Shown here: positions 5,508 to 22,269 of the stretch, piece by piece | How positions within the stretch are numbered: position 1 is the first letter of the stretch | Layout: each line of letters starts with the position of its first letter | Virus record (IMG/VR): IMGVR_UViG_3300008259_000313 | Coordinates: 1 to 23,695 of that record | Source: a virus | DNA: 23,695 nt | Direction: 5' to 3' (one strand) | The notes under the pieces: generated by a model | What the model saw: the letters and a program-made list of their open reading frames with translations, nothing else | Database searches by the model: none | What the model was told of the DNA's origin: nothing | Program-made: the position numbers and the translations under genes

Positions 5508-7709
5508 TTATTTTATATTTTTAAATGGGGATTTTTTAAACACTGACCCATTTGTTAATCCACGGTTGCTGCCCATATGCCTAAATGGACTACTATTTAA
5601 TTTAAACATTTTTTCTGACTTTTGCAAGTTTTTAGCTGCATCATCCATGATTGTTCTTTTAGCATATCCTCTATTTGATTGCTGAATCCTCATAAATGCA
5701 ACTAAAGCAGTAAATGCTACAAGTCTATCCACGTTGAGTCCTTCTACATATTCTTGCATCTCTTTGATTAACATGGGATCTGGAATTCTTTCTATTCCAT
5801 ATTTAGTTCTTACTATTGTTCCATCTGGTTTTGTTTCTGTATCTAGCTCTTCTTTGCAATACTCAATAACATAACTAAGCATGTGAGCTTTAAATAAGTT
5901 ACCCGTGTTTCTCCAACCATACTCCTGATAAACGTTAGTATTTGCACCAAGATCTTTAAGGAACATAATCTGTCCTTTTGGTACAAGATATCTTTGTTTC
6001 TTTCTAGATATCATGTATTGAATAAAAAGAGATATGTTACTTTCTATTAATGCCCAAGCATTATACCATTCTATTATTAGTTCTAATCTTTGATGAGTTT
6101 TATTAATATCATCAAACCTACCGCACCATGCTGCAACTATTTTATCTTGTTCTAGATAAGTCTCTGTTTCTACGCCAGTTACCTTAGTTACTTCAACTGG
6201 AGCTTTCATTACATAAATAGAACACAGTGATTCTGAGGTAGTTGTCTTACCTTCTGACACGGGGTCAATAGATGCATAATACTGACCAAAGGTTGGATCT
6301 TTAATTGGTCTTTCCCAAACTACTAATGTTCCTGTTTTATCTTCTAGTTTTTTAGATACAGGAAACTCCATAATTGGGAGTTTAGTTGTTTCTCTTACAG
6401 CAGGTTTACCATTCTCATCATAGAATATATCTAAGAATTCATATGCATATTCCTTCTCTTCTATTCTTCTTCTTTGTGCTGCTACTAAATGTGGAGGGAA
6501 TACAGATACTGATCTATGTGCAAATGCCTCTTCAATATTTCTAGGGTGCTGAGATATCCTTAACTGGTAATCTTCTGGAGATAATTCTTTCTTCCATTTT
6601 TCAAATTGTTCTTCCAGGGCAATCAAAGCTTCTTCTACTTGTGAATTACCATATTGGTCTATATGTGGTGGCATAGACCATTGCTCAGGAATAAACAAAC
6701 CTGAGAGACCTTCTGTTCCTTTACTGTCTATTAAATTAGTTTCTACAGCATAAATATCTTTTGAAGTAGGATTCAGGATCATATCCTTAAGAGGGTTACA
6801 CTGAGATAAATCCCCTACTGAGCCTGCAGCTATAAACATACCTGTAGTAATTAAACCAGATCTCATTGCTGGTCTCATATACTCATATGTCTGATCCATC
6901 TTAGGAGCAATACCTGCCTCCTCATGGAAAAAGAACTTTACCGGACCCCCTACACCATTTGTTGGATCTTTCTCAAATGACATACCTTGCATAGTACCTT
7001 TGAGACCAACCTCATTCTTTCTATCTCCTTTTCTAACTTCTATCTTCTGTTGCCACATCATTACCTTGTGTGGAGTCATTGGTCTATACCAAGCAGTATG
7101 TTCATTTAAGAATGCAGCATATTCATCTAAGAATTTCCAAGAGCCTTTCTCATTTATATAGTCTTTAAGACTTGCTCCTATCTTTAATGTGACCCCAGAC
7201 TCAAACCATATCTGGTTTAAAAGCTTAGCCATATGAAAGTAAGAGGAAGCTATCTGACGTTTCTTAAGAATAGCTACATGCTTGTAGTTGAGTTCTGCCA
7301 ATAGTTCATAGAGGGCCATGTGATACTGTGCATCCCGTATTTTGGCAAAGTCAAAAATTTGCTGTTCTTTATCAAATATTGGTAGGAAGTTAAGCCACAT
7401 GTAATAGTCTCTAGTAAGGTACCATATGTTGTCTTCTGATTTATAGATAACTCCTCTCCTACATCTGAGTTTTTGTTCATCCCAGTAATTGATAAAATCT
7501 TTGGATTTAAATGGAGAGTCGCAGTAATATCCGTCTTGTCTGAACTTTCTGGATTCAGCATTAAATAATAAGCTAGTTTCATCAAAGTTATATTTACCTG
7601 GTTCTTTAAATAAGTCTCTTAAAAACTTGGCAAACTCTTCTCTTGAAGAAAAGTCTGTAACAGTCCAAGTTCCATTATCATAAGTTGGTATGTTTTCAAA
7701 TATCTCCAT
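5508..7709 (-). CDS. terL: Terminase large subunit (packaging ATPase and nuclease)
   Basis: 733 aa. The N-terminal half is an ATPase. A deviant Walker A lies at about 149-157 (KKRQIASSY; compare the K-x-R-Q-x-G-x-S form of many terminases, here with Ala at the usual Gly). A Walker B follows at 257-266 (VKFFFHEEAG) with the catalytic acid pair HEE. The C-terminal half has a plausible RNase H-like nuclease triad: D482 in SIDPVSEG, E556 in LIESN, and D661 in NVDRLVAF. It cuts the concatemer and pumps DNA through the portal encoded next. The start ATG overlaps the stop of the upstream gene (TAATG), supporting the start and co-translation. The C-terminal ~50 residues are basic. Function is secure; the exact active-site residues are read by eye. 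Confidence 0.9.
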   Translation of the reverse strand: MEIFENIPTYDNGTWTVTDFSSREEFAKFLRDLFKEPGKYNFDETSLLFNAESRKFRQDGYYCDSPFKSKDFINYWDEQKLRCRRGVIYKSEDNIWYLTRDYYMWLNFLPIFDKEQQIFDFAKIRDAQYHMALYELLAELNYKHVAILKKRQIASSYFHMAKLLNQIWFESGVTLKIGASLKDYINEKGSWKFLDEYAAFLNEHTAWYRPMTPHKVMMWQQKIEVRKGDRKNEVGLKGTMQGMSFEKDPTNGVGGPVKFFFHEEAGIAPKMDQTYEYMRPAMRSGLITTGMFIAAGSVGDLSQCNPLKDMILNPTSKDIYAVETNLIDSKGTEGLSGLFIPEQWSMPPHIDQYGNSQVEEALIALEEQFEKWKKELSPEDYQLRISQHPRNIEEAFAHRSVSVFPPHLVAAQRRRIEEKEYAYEFLDIFYDENGKPAVRETTKLPIMEFPVSKKLEDKTGTLVVWERPIKDPTFGQYYASIDPVSEGKTTTSESLCSIYVMKAPVEVTKVTGVETETYLEQDKIVAAWCGRFDDINKTHQRLELIIEWYNAWALIESNISLFIQYMISRKKQRYLVPKGQIMFLKDLGANTNVYQEYGWRNTGNLFKAHMLSYVIEYCKEELDTETKPDGTIVRTKYGIERIPDPMLIKEMQEYVEGLNVDRLVAFTALVAFMRIQQSNRGYAKRTIMDDAAKNLQKSEKMFKLNSSPFRHMGSNRGLTNGSVFKKSPFKNIK

Positions 7710-8224
7710 TACTGATCATATGCCATTCCAATACCACCTCTTACTCTACTAGATTGTTCTTCTTGTAGATCTTTATAAGCTCCTTTGAAAGATGCTCTAA
7801 TTGCCTCATAGTTTTTAGCAGCATTTACTAAAGCAGTAATATTACCATCACGCCCGTGTGTAATAGGTGTAGTTTCCATATATCTACCTAATCTATCTAA
7901 CATGGATGCAATTCCTTTGTATGCTCTGGATGTAGGAGTCTCATACATTCTCTGGCAGAACTGCAGTGCTATGTATATATCTTCATCTTCAGTAGAGAAG
8001 TCTGCTTCTATTTGATCTAGAATTAAAGACTCTTTATCTAAATCCGGAGTATAAAAGAATGGATTTAAATCTGGATTAGGACAAGTCATATAGAATAAGT
8101 ACTGATATATCTTGATATAGTTATCAGGATAGTTATCCATAACCATTTTAAGAGCCTTTAGAGTATAGCAATGTTCTGTGGGAATTACTTTACCATTCTG
8201 TATATCAAATAGTTTTACTATCAT
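7709..8224 (-). CDS. Conserved-position protein just upstream of terminase, unknown
   Basis: 171 aa with no motif I can assign. The N-terminus is beta-like (MIVKLFDIQNGKVIP). An aromatic stretch follows (YQYLFYMTCPNPDLNPFFYTPD, described here only as Tyr/Phe/Pro-rich, about 42-62), then an acidic segment and a helical C-terminal half. There is no signal peptide or membrane segment. It is locked between a nuclease gene (4-bp ATGA overlap) and terL (1-bp TAATG overlap), so it is translated with both and probably acts in head assembly or DNA packaging. A small terminase subunit is possible from position alone, but no helix-turn-helix is obvious. Treat as unknown. Confidence 0.8.
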   Translation of the reverse strand: MIVKLFDIQNGKVIPTEHCYTLKALKMVMDNYPDNYIKIYQYLFYMTCPNPDLNPFFYTPDLDKESLILDQIEADFSTEDEDIYIALQFCQRMYETPTSRAYKGIASMLDRLGRYMETTPITHGRDGNITALVNAAKNYEAIRASFKGAYKDLQEEQSSRVRGGIGMAYDQ

Positions 8225-9054
8225 TTCTTTTTAATTTTATCTCTGTTATCATGTAGGTAGTGCATAATTGCAATTACCTCATCTTTTAAATATGGTATTT
8301 CCATCTGCACTACATCTTTAACAATTGGATCTCCATTATCATCATAACTAGTTAAAGGGTATCCATATTTATCTAAACCATCTGTTTCAAATACTATATG
8401 ATGGATAAACATTTTCCCGGGTTGTAATTTAGGGTTATGCTTTAGTATCATGTACATATAGATACTTAACTGCAGACTGTAGTGATTAAAATTACAATCA
8501 TCTAAACTAGATACAGGAGAGAGCATTTTTTCAGACACCCCCTCCCAATCTTTGTAAGATTCAGTCTTAATCTCTTTATTAGTTTTATAGTCAATAATGT
8601 TTACTTTACCATTAACTACTTCTACGAGATCTGACTGACCACAGATGCCTGCTGATTTAAGATAAACCATATGCTCTGGATACACGCCTGGTTCTAGTTT
8701 TTGTGATGGTGCTAACTTAATACCATCATTTAAATCTGTTGGTTTAAATACAGGTACAGTTATACCTTCTCTTTCTATTGAAGCTAAAGCACATAAGTCA
8801 GCTTCTCTTTGGTTATGATAAAAAGTACCAAGAGACATTGCTCTTTCTGATTCAGCATTCCAAATAGTTACAATTTCTTTTGGAGTATAGCCGTACCACT
8901 TAGATCTTTTATTCTTACAAACCTTCTTTGCTACTTTCTCAGCATCAAAAGGTATCTTAAAATGTGATACCAAAGTAGTTACACTTATCCAATTAATCTC
9001 TGAGCCGTCATTGCTTCTATAGCTATGATCCTTGGCATTAAATACTATACTCAT
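8221..9054 (-). CDS. PD-(D/E)XK nuclease, RecB/Cas4-like
   Basis: 277 aa with the full signature of the RecB-type PD-(D/E)XK family in order: the GxxxH element (SLGTFYHN, G76-H80), D142 in CGQSDLVE, the D-x-K pair D155/K157 in NIIDYKTNK, and the Q-x-x-x-Y motif Q195-Y199 (LQLSIY). These residues bind metal and cleave DNA in the family. Homologous nucleases are recurrent in crAss-like genomes. It lies in the packaging block, coupled to neighbours by 4-bp ATGA overlaps on both sides, so it may process replicated DNA before packaging; a recombination or host-DNA role is equally open. Only two Cys (C46, C138 region) are evident, so an Fe-S cluster as in Cas4 is unlikely. Confidence 0.85.
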   Translation of the reverse strand: MSIVFNAKDHSYRSNDGSEINWISVTTLVSHFKIPFDAEKVAKKVCKNKRSKWYGYTPKEIVTIWNAESERAMSLGTFYHNQREADLCALASIEREGITVPVFKPTDLNDGIKLAPSQKLEPGVYPEHMVYLKSAGICGQSDLVEVVNGKVNIIDYKTNKEIKTESYKDWEGVSEKMLSPVSSLDDCNFNHYSLQLSIYMYMILKHNPKLQPGKMFIHHIVFETDGLDKYGYPLTSYDDNGDPIVKDVVQMEIPYLKDEVIAIMHYLHDNRDKIKKK

Positions 9055-15686: not shown

Positions 15687-16691
15687 TTATTTATTTTCTA
15701 ATGCCTCTACTTTAGCAGACAATTCTTTAATAGCTTTAACCAAGATTGGTATAAGTTTACCATAACTTGCTTCTAACTTCTCTGGGTTTTCTTCATATAC
15801 AAGACCTAATGTTTCAGCCATCTCATATTTTTCTTGAGTAGACTTTAAATCTTGTGCAATGAATCCAAAATCTTTTACACCATGCTTTCCATCTTCTTCT
15901 CTATCATTCCAAACAAATGATACAGGATTAAGCTCTTTAACAAATTCTAATCCCACTGCTAATTCAGCAACTTCTTCTTTGTCTCTTGCATCTGATAAAG
16001 ATGTAATAGACGTTACTGCACATCTTAAAACATTATTAGAACTATTACCTAATGTAATTGAATTACTAGTGCTTGATGTAGGTGCTCCGGAATTTGAACC
16101 AATGCAAATATTATTTGAACCTGTTGTAATAGGATTTAAACCGTTTCCTTCACCAGCATATACACCTAAAAAAGTATTATCTGAACCGGTGCTAACACTT
16201 TGACCAGATCCCGCACCTACAGTTGTATTTGCACCAGAAGACGTAGTATTCCATAGAGATCGCCATCCAATAGCTGTGTTAGGACTAGATGTTACAGCTA
16301 TAATACTTTTTAGTGCCCCACTTCCTACTGCTACTTGACCAAATGAGCTGTTTCCTACCACGGCAAGAGCTTGTTTACCCACTGCTACATTTTCAGAACC
16401 AGAATTAGTATTTGTTAAAGCAATAGATCCTACGGCAACATTATCATCACCATCTGTAAGTGAGCCTCCACTAAATAAACCTAATACGGTATTACTACTT
16501 CCAGTAGTAATGCCACTTCCTCCACTACCAACCATAAGGTTAGCATTAGCTGTTAATGATGCTGGAGCTGAAGCTCCAATATATTTATTTAATGTTCCTG
16601 GACCACCAGATAAAGATCTTAATTCAATACCGTTTACATCAACATAGTTTGCTGATTGTGGATTAACAATATCTACATTTATTGTACTCAT
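15687..16691 (-). CDS. Tail fibre with C-terminal S74 chaperone (endosialidase-type) domain, copy 2
   Basis: 334 aa. The N-terminal 30 residues (MSTINVDIVNPQSANYVDVNG...) are shared with the gene upstream. Residues ~55-215 are degenerate repeats of about 20-25 residues built on N-x-x-[VLI]-G-x-x-[AS] (NTVLGLFSG, NVAVGSIAL, NVAVGKQAL, NTAIGWRSL, NTFLGVYAG), as in YadA-like trimeric adhesin heads. The C-terminal domain from ~230 is an intramolecular chaperone: SDARDK (S233, D234, R236, K238) matches the S-[DN]-x-R-x-K core of Peptidase_S74, which trimerises the fibre and then cleaves itself off before the Ser, and a helical end (LVKAIKELSAKVEALENK) follows. Probable receptor-binding fibre. It starts one base after the upstream stop. 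Confidence 0.85.
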   Translation of the reverse strand: MSTINVDIVNPQSANYVDVNGIELRSLSGGPGTLNKYIGASAPASLTANANLMVGSGGSGITTGSSNTVLGLFSGGSLTDGDDNVAVGSIALTNTNSGSENVAVGKQALAVVGNSSFGQVAVGSGALKSIIAVTSSPNTAIGWRSLWNTTSSGANTTVGAGSGQSVSTGSDNTFLGVYAGEGNGLNPITTGSNNICIGSNSGAPTSSTSNSITLGNSSNNVLRCAVTSITSLSDARDKEEVAELAVGLEFVKELNPVSFVWNDREEDGKHGVKDFGFIAQDLKSTQEKYEMAETLGLVYEENPEKLEASYGKLIPILVKAIKELSAKVEALENK

Positions 16692-16692
16692 C

Positions 16693-17826
16693 TTATTTAT
16701 TTTTTAATTCATTAAGTTCTTTTGATAAATCTTGTATTGCTTTGACAAGAATTGGAACAAGTTTTCCATAAGAAGCTTCAAGTCTCTCAGGATTTTGTTC
16801 ATATACTAAATTTAATGTTTCAGCTAATGCTGCATCTTCCTGAGATTTTTTAAGATCTTGTGCTATGAAACCAAAATCTTTAACATCATGTTTACCATTT
16901 TCATTTCTTTCATCCCACACAAACTCCACTGGTTTAAGAGTATTTACAAAATTAAGTCCTGCAGTTAACTCAGTAACTTCTTTTTTGTCTCTAACATCTG
17001 AGAGTGATGTTATAGAAGTAACAGCACATCTAAGAACTGTATTGCTTGAGTTACCAAGAGTAATTTCATTACTCACAATTGGAGTAGATGGTTCTGCAAG
17101 ATAACCTATTAGTATATTGTTACTTCCAGAACTTAAATAAGATGCACCAGCTTGACCAGTACCGAGCATAACATTATTATTTCCAGAAGTTAATGTCCAA
17201 CCCATTTGATAACCCACAATAGTATTCTGACTTCCGGAATTAAATGTTGCACCAGCTCGCAATCCTAAAGCTGTATTCCCTGTTCCACTAGTTAAACTAG
17301 GTAAACATTCATGTCCAACTGATGTATTACTTGATCCGGTTGCTAAACCTAGAGCTGAAACTCCAATTGCAGTATTATTAATACCAGTTGTTGTACTTGC
17401 CAAAGCATTAAAACCAATTGCTACTTGACCAGGAGTACCAGTATAAAGTTTTAAAGCTTCATATCCAATTGCTACACTGTTGTTACCTACTGTATTTGAA
17501 TATAATGCAAAATTTCCAATTGATATATTTCTATTTCCAGTAACATTAGCAAATAATGAATTCATACCAACAGCAACATTATTACTTCCTGTTGTACAAT
17601 TTACTAATGAATATGTACCAACTGCTGTATTTTGATTTCCTGTTGTTAGTGACCCACCAGCACTACTACCAATTAATGTAGTATTAGAACCTGAAACCAT
17701 TGAAAGACCACCATTTCCAAAAGCAACGTTAGCAGGATCTCCTAGTGGGGAACTTATGTTTACTCCATTTACTCCTACAACATTTGATGATTGAGGAAGT
17801 ATTATATCTACATTAATTTGGCTCAT
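16693..17826 (-). CDS. Tail fibre with C-terminal S74 chaperone domain, copy 1
   Basis: 377 aa, tandem paralogue of the next gene. N-terminus MSQINVDIILPQSSNVVGVNG is followed by about nine YadA-like repeats (NTAVGTYSLVN, NVAVGMNSLF, NISIGNFAL, NSVAIGYEAL, NTAIGVSAL, NTSVGHECL, NTALGLRAG, NTIVGYQMG) between ~45 and 245. S74 domain from ~272, with SDVRDK (S276, D277, R279, K281) and FGFIAQDLK. The two copies are very similar in the first 30 residues and the last ~115 (SITSLSD onward) but differ in number and sequence of the middle repeats, pointing to duplication and diversification of receptor specificity. Trimeric fibre expected, with autocleavage of the chaperone. Confidence 0.85.
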   Translation of the reverse strand: MSQINVDIILPQSSNVVGVNGVNISSPLGDPANVAFGNGGLSMVSGSNTTLIGSSAGGSLTTGNQNTAVGTYSLVNCTTGSNNVAVGMNSLFANVTGNRNISIGNFALYSNTVGNNSVAIGYEALKLYTGTPGQVAIGFNALASTTTGINNTAIGVSALGLATGSSNTSVGHECLPSLTSGTGNTALGLRAGATFNSGSQNTIVGYQMGWTLTSGNNNVMLGTGQAGASYLSSGSNNILIGYLAEPSTPIVSNEITLGNSSNTVLRCAVTSITSLSDVRDKKEVTELTAGLNFVNTLKPVEFVWDERNENGKHDVKDFGFIAQDLKKSQEDAALAETLNLVYEQNPERLEASYGKLVPILVKAIQDLSKELNELKNK

Positions 17827-20961: not shown

Positions 20962-21162
20962 TTAATTTTTTATTACCCGGTTATATGTAATATTGTTTTT
21001 TGCTCTTATGTCTTTGTGAGTAAACTGCCAAAACTCTCCCGTATCATTTAGAATCACAGTGTATATAGTATCTGTTTCATGCCCATATTCAGTTACTAAC
21101 CAAATAACCCCCGGGCCTTTTGGTGTGTTTACTTCTACTCTATTAGTTGGTTCATAGATCAT
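20962..21162 (-). CDS. Small SH3-like beta protein, unknown
   Basis: 66 aa, all beta-like: NRVEVNTPKGPGVIWLVTEYG, then DTIYTVILNDTGEFWQFTHKDIR and ITYNRVIKN. The order 'V-x-x-x-x-G-x-G-x-[IV]' then 'Y-x-V-x-L-x-D-x-G-x-x-W-x-F-x-x-x-D-[IL]-R' is typical of small SH3-fold proteins common in phages and phage-like islands. Binding to nucleic acid or protein is possible. Its start lies inside the end of the transferase-like gene (11-bp overlap), so they are co-expressed. Confidence 0.75.
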   Translation of the reverse strand: MIYEPTNRVEVNTPKGPGVIWLVTEYGHETDTIYTVILNDTGEFWQFTHKDIRAKNNITYNRVIKN

Positions 21163-21826
21163 AATTCTCTATCTTAATTTGTTCATCCCTTTCTACTAGT
21201 CTTGTGTAGAGTTCAATATCTTTACTCCACTCTTTTCCTGTCCAGAATTCAAACCCTGAATAGTTTGACTTATACAGACAGCACTTCTCATATCCCCCCA
21301 ACAAATATACATATTCGCAGCCAAGTAACTTAGCAGTTTCACATTCATACATTTGAGCTACTGTTCCTAGAGAAAGTTTAGGATCAGCATAATCCCAGAT
21401 AAACTGGTATGCTACAAATTGTGTATCAAACTGTTTATACAAACTAATTCCCACCAATGTATCTGCCCAGTACTCTATGACTTTACAATCCTTAAAAGAT
21501 TCTAGTTTAATATCCCGCTTAAATCCATGATATGTACAATACTTATCATACAACTCCACGTAAGCTTCTAGATTACCAGCAACATCCCCGTGTTCTAGTA
21601 TAATTCTTTTAGATAATTTCTTTGTGGTTTTAGTTGGCTTGTATTCTGTTAGATCTATCCGGGTACTTCTTTCATTGTACCACTTCCCCTCCCAGGGAAT
21701 CCATCCCTCTTTGAGTGCATCTATAGAAGATTCATTTTCTTCTAGTATACCATAGGCACAATTCACTATGACTTCTAGATCACTTACTTTACCAAAACCA
21801 TTAATGTGATCAAAATATATTTTCAC
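21152..21826 (-). CDS. Aminoacyl-tRNA-protein transferase-like (ATE1/Bpt) GNAT-fold protein
   Basis: 224 aa. Two regions align by eye with arginyl/leucyl-tRNA-protein transferases. N-terminal: DALKEGWIPWEGKWYN, then RSTRIDLTEYKPTKTTKKL and SKR (36-74), parallel to the ATE 'GWR...Y...C..C...RI...F.PS.SQRR..KR' segment but without its Cys pair. C-terminal: AYQFIWDYADPKLSLGTVAQ, then ECETAKLLGCEYVYLLGGYE and YKSNYSGFEFWTGKEW (139-200), parallel to the 'Y.F.DP.....SLGT...L.EI..A...G...YLGY.I.....YK....P.E...G.W' core. Those enzymes add Arg or Leu from tRNA to protein N-termini and mark them for degradation. Starts at GTG 21826, overlapping the metalloprotease stop (GTGA). Activity is unproven; a diverged GNAT is the alternative. 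Confidence 0.65.
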   Translation of the reverse strand: MKIYFDHINGFGKVSDLEVIVNCAYGILEENESSIDALKEGWIPWEGKWYNERSTRIDLTEYKPTKTTKKLSKRIILEHGDVAGNLEAYVELYDKYCTYHGFKRDIKLESFKDCKVIEYWADTLVGISLYKQFDTQFVAYQFIWDYADPKLSLGTVAQMYECETAKLLGCEYVYLLGGYEKCCLYKSNYSGFEFWTGKEWSKDIELYTRLVERDEQIKIENYDL

Positions 21827-22269
21827 TTTCTTGAGAAGAAGTTCTTCTTTGGTGCTTCTACCTTGGTAGTCTTTAGTTTCTCTATGATCTTGTTTGCTTC
21901 ATCTTCGGCAAACCCAATAACCTCTTCTTCTTTGTCTTTGATATTCCAGTTGTTTAGTAGAATACTCATGTGCATAGTTTCATGCATAACAGCTGTTGCC
22001 TTCTCTGTAGGATTATACTTCTTGAAAGTACCCATGTTCAAAAACAAGAATGGTTTATATGGATCTTTAGCCGTTAGCTTCTTATCCGCGGGATCATAGT
22101 TAGTCCACCCATATATGTAAACACCATTACCCTTAGTCTTGTCTACTTCTTCAGCTTGTGCATCCTGACGGTTTAGACCATGCATTTCCGGGACTTTGTA
22201 ATAGTCAAATATCTCAGTGGCATCATTACCAATGAGTACTATATACTTACCCATGTCTATCTTCTTCAT
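21823..22269 (-). CDS. Putative HExxH zinc metalloprotease-like protein
   Basis: 148 aa. Residues 92-100 read TAVMHETMH, giving HETMH (H96, E97, H100), the HExxH zinc motif in a hydrophobic-flanked helix. Downstream KEEEVIGFAEDEAN (113-126) supplies Glu residues (E116, E122) able to act as third ligand, as in gluzincins. The N-terminal half has GKYIVLIGNDATEIFDYY and LFLNMG, a small alpha/beta domain. No signal peptide, so a cytoplasmic enzyme or zinc-binding protein. Its short length and absence of an obvious pro-region make it a minimal peptidase-like protein. The 3' end overlaps the transferase-like gene by 4 bp (GTGA), so the two are translationally coupled. Confidence 0.7.
   Translation of the reverse strand: MKKIDMGKYIVLIGNDATEIFDYYKVPEMHGLNRQDAQAEEVDKTKGNGVYIYGWTNYDPADKKLTAKDPYKPFLFLNMGTFKKYNPTEKATAVMHETMHMSILLNNWNIKDKEEEVIGFAEDEANKIIEKLKTTKVEAPKKNFFSRK

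Follow-up and report, generated by a model that had tools for sequence, protein, structure and literature searches.

A transferase-like gene and its neighbors

Does this virus encode an enzyme that attaches amino acids to proteins and, if so, which of the neighboring genes works with it? The question is raised by a locus on the minus strand of a virus record (IMGVR_UViG_3300008259_000313), the whole of which, 23,695 bases, was analyzed and is referred to as the window. The gene for a 148-aa protein with an HETMH motif (22269-21823) is followed there by the gene for a 224-aa transferase-like protein with a GTG start (21826-21152), and the two share the 4 bp GTGA (21823-21826, as read on the minus strand). 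A second overlap, of 11 bp, joins the 3' end of the transferase gene to the start of a gene for a small conserved protein of 66 residues, p66 (21162-20962). A sequence-only reading of the window had located the first two open reading frames and their overlap correctly, missing the p66 gene, and had proposed that they form a coupled system in which a peptidase exposes N-termini that its neighbor tags.

The terminase of the window is about 25% identical to the terminases of crAss-like phages and of Flavobacterium and Cellulophaga phages. Because of this resemblance, Bacteroidota is the likely host phylum of this virus group. PADLOC gave no match.

The 224-aa protein as a relative of ATE1 and Bpt

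The 224-aa protein matched the ATE_C domain (PF04377) with 31.2 bits for a cut-off of 25 (E = 3.8e-7), and this domain was matched by 40 of the 40 aligned members of the phage family (E ≤ 0.1). A search with the profile of the phage family reached yeast ATE1 (E = 2.6e-5). With hhalign, five proteobacterial Bpt proteins (bacterial aspartate/glutamate leucyltransferases, annotated as arginyltransferases; PF04376/PF04377) were aligned at 5.8e-7 over residues 53-201, the basic segment included. These results bear out the ATE1/Bpt assignment, with its basic segment, that had been made from the letters alone. Seven NCBIfam arginyltransferase models (PRK01305) also matched, with scores far below their equivalog cut-offs (29.3 versus 252 bits), and we do not file the protein as a Bpt orthologue.

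Bpt and the phage protein are colinear over residues 53-201 and have invariant residues in common; unlike Bpt, the phage protein has no N-terminal Cys pairs, is 224 aa long, belongs to a long-branch clade of its own and is phage-encoded. Pfam showed no ATE_N domain in it, the CxxC motif is absent and Cys23 is not conserved across the aligned members, confirming that the N-terminal Cys pair is missing, as the sequence-only reading had it. The zinc-finger cysteines of yeast ATE1 (C20, C23, C94 and C95), which help tRNA and substrate binding in that enzyme (PMC10115844), have no counterpart in the phage transferase; with less than half the size of yeast ATE1, it lacks both the zinc finger and the variable domain.

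The 17 phage and 27 cellular members that were compared all agreed in nine residues (G41, R56, G154, Y174, G178, Y179, Y185, K186 and W200), these being the columns in which the cellular sequences also carry the phage consensus residue; variation of the W42/F type is found elsewhere. The segment TKTTKKLSKR (residues 65-74; codons at 21605-21634, minus strand), in which position 70 is K or R in 40/40 members and position 69 in 38/40, is, by alignment, the counterpart of the Bpt basic segment. The basic helix of yeast ATE1 binds the tRNA acceptor stem (PMC10115844), and the same contact is probable for this segment.

The AlphaFold model of the transferase (pLDDT 84.3, pTM 0.83) has a helix at residues 66-72 and a predicted GNAT-type ATE fold. 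When it was compared with the PDB by Foldseek, ranks 1-23 were all ATE1 (1.8e-8 for the human enzyme), followed by FemX, MprF/LPGS (lysyl-phosphatidylglycerol synthases) and L/F-transferase. The GNAT core and the basic, tRNA-facing helix are common to the model and to eukaryotic ATE1 (8tzv, 7tif, 8e3s, 7wfx). Since the top fold matches are enzymes that use charged tRNAs, an aminoacyl-tRNA-using enzyme is favored over an ordinary acetyltransferase, the alternative against which the sequence-only reading had proposed to check its assignment by structure prediction. By sequence, profile and predicted fold, the 224-aa protein is thus a genuine ATE1/Bpt relative.

One pattern scan of IMG/VR found 479 stretches that encode a relative of the transferase. 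No relative was found in 50,697 GenBank phages, nor in 84,980 prokaryote genomes by a pattern scan of contigs with a phage alignment. The phage sequences formed a monophyletic clade (100/99) with a stem branch of 3.2 changes per column, apart from Bpt and from the cellular homologues of Bacteroidota; as long branches meet in this tree, we trust its placement no further than this separate clade. Given the very long branch, the function of the phage clade may have shifted. ATE_C proteins over the cut-off were encoded by 19 of 396 Bacteroidota genomes (about 5%; L229-L250). They belong to the same family as the phage transferase and are colinear with it, apparently without an N-terminal Cys cluster, and some have long C-terminal extensions; the phage clade is separate (100/99) and not nested inside them. 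As several of these cellular members also appear to be devoid of the ATE_N Cys pairs, ATE_N marks out the canonical ATE1/Bpt enzymes and not the superfamily as a whole.

Linkage of p66 to the transferase

p66 was present in 182 of 182 transferase-anchored loci, many of which are overlapping copies of one contig, and it was encoded directly downstream of the transferase in 254 of 263 pairs. One branch (8 loci) has a diverged p66 upstream, on the opposite strand; this form was included in the search profile, though BLAST clustering had already joined it to the others. Among 21 long records, p66 was found in all 15 that encode the transferase versus none of the 6 that do not. Similarly, the loci with a transferase among those anchored on the HExxH gene (16/71) were the same ones that had p66. 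Of 78 p66 loci, 13 had no transferase. We found no convincing relative of p66 in Pfam, PHROG or PDB.

For neighbor counts, the transferase proteins were collapsed at 95% identity, which gave 50 clusters. Transferase and p66 occupied two sites. In the lineage of the window, they lie near the start of a leftward operon with tail, portal and terminase genes; in at least 14 of the 50 clusters, they lie exactly between the exonuclease gene and a gene of about 170 aa that precedes the terminase large subunit. The homologues of these two flanking genes, encoding a PD-(D/E)XK exonuclease and a 171-aa protein, directly abut each other in the window (7709-9054, minus strand). Given their occurrence at two separate genomic sites, transferase and p66 appear to move together. 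A special co-evolution of the two proteins was not supported by distance correlation, which was 0.49 for p66 and transferase and 0.83 for terminase and transferase, the latter value coming from a different subset of clusters. It is linkage, not evolutionary rate, that is the evidence for p66 as the partner.

The HExxH gene as a facultative neighbor

The HETMH motif claimed in the sequence-only reading, with its downstream Glu residues, was kept in 36 of 36 aligned relatives (Glu114, Glu115 and Glu122); rare HEAMH and HETVH variants occurred in other relatives. This invariance makes a metallopeptidase plausible, and we designate the protein a putative zincin. It had no relative in Pfam, PHROG, PDB sequences or PDB folds, its model being moderate (pLDDT 74).

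The co-occurrence survey went against this gene as a partner. It was found in the locus of 13 of the 50 transferase clusters, all belonging to one subclade with about 74% identity or more to the transferase of the window, and in none of the clusters of the deeper branches. Its position relative to the transferase varied from -1794 to +880, and in some loci it lay 1.8 kb upstream, in others beyond p66 on the downstream side; the 4-bp overlap was observed in the window and several relatives. Of 24 longer records, which were picked for carrying either gene and so indicate separability rather than a rate, 9 had both genes, 9 the transferase only and 6 the HExxH gene only; each gene was present without the other in records of about 100 kb. 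An obligate partnership was rejected on these counts: the HExxH gene is a frequent yet dispensable neighbor, outside the conserved unit. Thus, of the coupled two-gene system proposed earlier, the family of the transferase was retained and the partner was not.

Two further HExxH sequences were encountered. A match to an HExxH homologue at G013:C1:68515-68934 contains one in-frame TGA. At L338:2525-3001, a different HExxH protein (AHEVLH...DEEHEAEA, phrog_20436) is encoded directly upstream of p66, at the usual position of the transferase; a comparison with the HETMH protein gave no relation.

ClpS, tRNA and the N-degron context

In the Bacteroidota genomes sampled, ClpS was encoded by 146 of 148 and L/F-transferase by 134 of 148. 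This recognition adaptor would therefore be available in the infected cell if the host is, as its phylum was inferred, a member of the Bacteroidota. ClpS (about 84 aa) was also encoded by 14 of 21 related phage records, most versions having the NDD motif and the conserved His, and it clearly resembles Bacteroidota ClpS. (The phage ClpS genes are those of L393-L405 and of G001, G003, G005, G007, G008, G012, G013 and G018-G023.) It was found in 9 of 15 transferase-positive versus 5 of 6 transferase-negative records, and in none of four transferase-positive records of deeper branches (G009, G010, G011 and G014); the gene lies some 10-15 kb from that of the transferase. Being equally common without the transferase and 10-15 kb away from it, phage ClpS provides context, not proof. 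A possible link to N-degron proteolysis is strengthened by the near-universal ClpS and L/F-transferase of Bacteroidota and by the ClpS genes that many of the related phages have.

A lone tRNA-Arg(TCT) gene is present in many of these phages, whether or not they encode the transferase (L087, L089, L110, L120, L131; L373, L374, L376), and in several transferase loci it lies within 2-10 kb. A tie between this tRNA and the transferase was considered and rejected, since the tRNA is also found in records that have no transferase and is absent from several that do.

Proposed function and alternatives

The explanation that we favor, at slightly better than even chances, is that of a compact, phage-specific ATE1/Bpt transferase that works with p66 and marks proteins for ClpS-guided Clp proteolysis. 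The basic helix and the GNAT-like core would bind a charged host tRNA, and an amino acid would be moved onto an amino group of a protein, probably its N-terminus, p66 acting alongside the transferase or mediating its action. Host or phage proteins tagged in this manner would then undergo ClpS-guided Clp proteolysis during infection. Within this scheme, tRNA-dependent transfer of an amino acid to a protein is likely, and proteolytic tagging is its most likely purpose. A more specific version, which we put forward tentatively and as less likely than not, is that p66 serves as an adaptor that stands in, in trans, for the lost zinc-finger domain for substrates, and that chosen host or defense proteins are tagged and handed by phage or host ClpS to Clp proteases.

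We considered the possibility that an enzyme of the same class tags a phage assembly or structural protein (of the virion, of packaging, or p66 itself) without leading to degradation. Such a role, the strongest competitor of proteolytic tagging, appears rather unlikely. The two sites at which the transferase and p66 genes are found, between exonuclease and terminase large subunit genes, in the packaging region, and near the start of an operon for tail, portal and terminase, are in keeping with it, as are the constancy of p66 as the partner and the lack of ClpS in the deeper-branch records checked. Yet, ATE/Bpt and L/F-transferases of established role mostly feed N-degron pathways, and we know of no example of a tagged virion protein. 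The ATE fold might also have been kept by an enzyme with another donor, such as acyl-CoA, or another acceptor, for instance an envelope component as with FemX or MprF. The GNAT superfamily fold, the long stem branch, the absent zinc finger, the weak Acetyltransf_6 matches observed in 10 of the 40 aligned members and the presence of FemX and MprF among the fold matches would fit such a change, but ATE1 came clearly first in both fold and profile searches, and the basic helix and the ATE-wide residues are retained, making it improbable. The system initially proposed, in which the HExxH peptidase exposes N-termini for the transferase next to it, could account for the 4-bp overlap, the intact and conserved state of both proteins and their joint presence in 9 of the 24 long records. 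It is nevertheless very hard to reconcile with a neighborhood limited to the 13 clusters, with the shifting position of the gene, with the long records that have one gene alone, and with a model in which no zincin fold was recognized; we give it very little credence.

The preferred explanation, a p66-assisted transferase that feeds Clp proteolysis, has parallels in jumbo phages, whose ClpS has been described as probably linking substrates to the ClpAP of the host, and whose R2K ATP-grasp peptide ligases may attach aminoacyl groups to proteins of the host (PMC7824862). A term search of that article found no ATE/Bpt-family enzyme, and no virus-encoded one was found in a literature search with subscription literature outside its reach. 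If active, the transferase would allow a phage to control which proteins are destroyed by the host, by means of the host's own charged tRNAs, and it would offer a naturally minimal example of a class of enzymes in which the substrate-binding domain is little understood. The fixed linkage makes p66 a direct candidate for an accessory subunit, and the role of the phage ClpS genes becomes testable through the transferase.

Elsewhere in the window (15687-17826), two adjacent paralogues contain repeated glycine- and threonine-rich motifs, one of them with a confirmed S74 endosialidase-chaperone domain.
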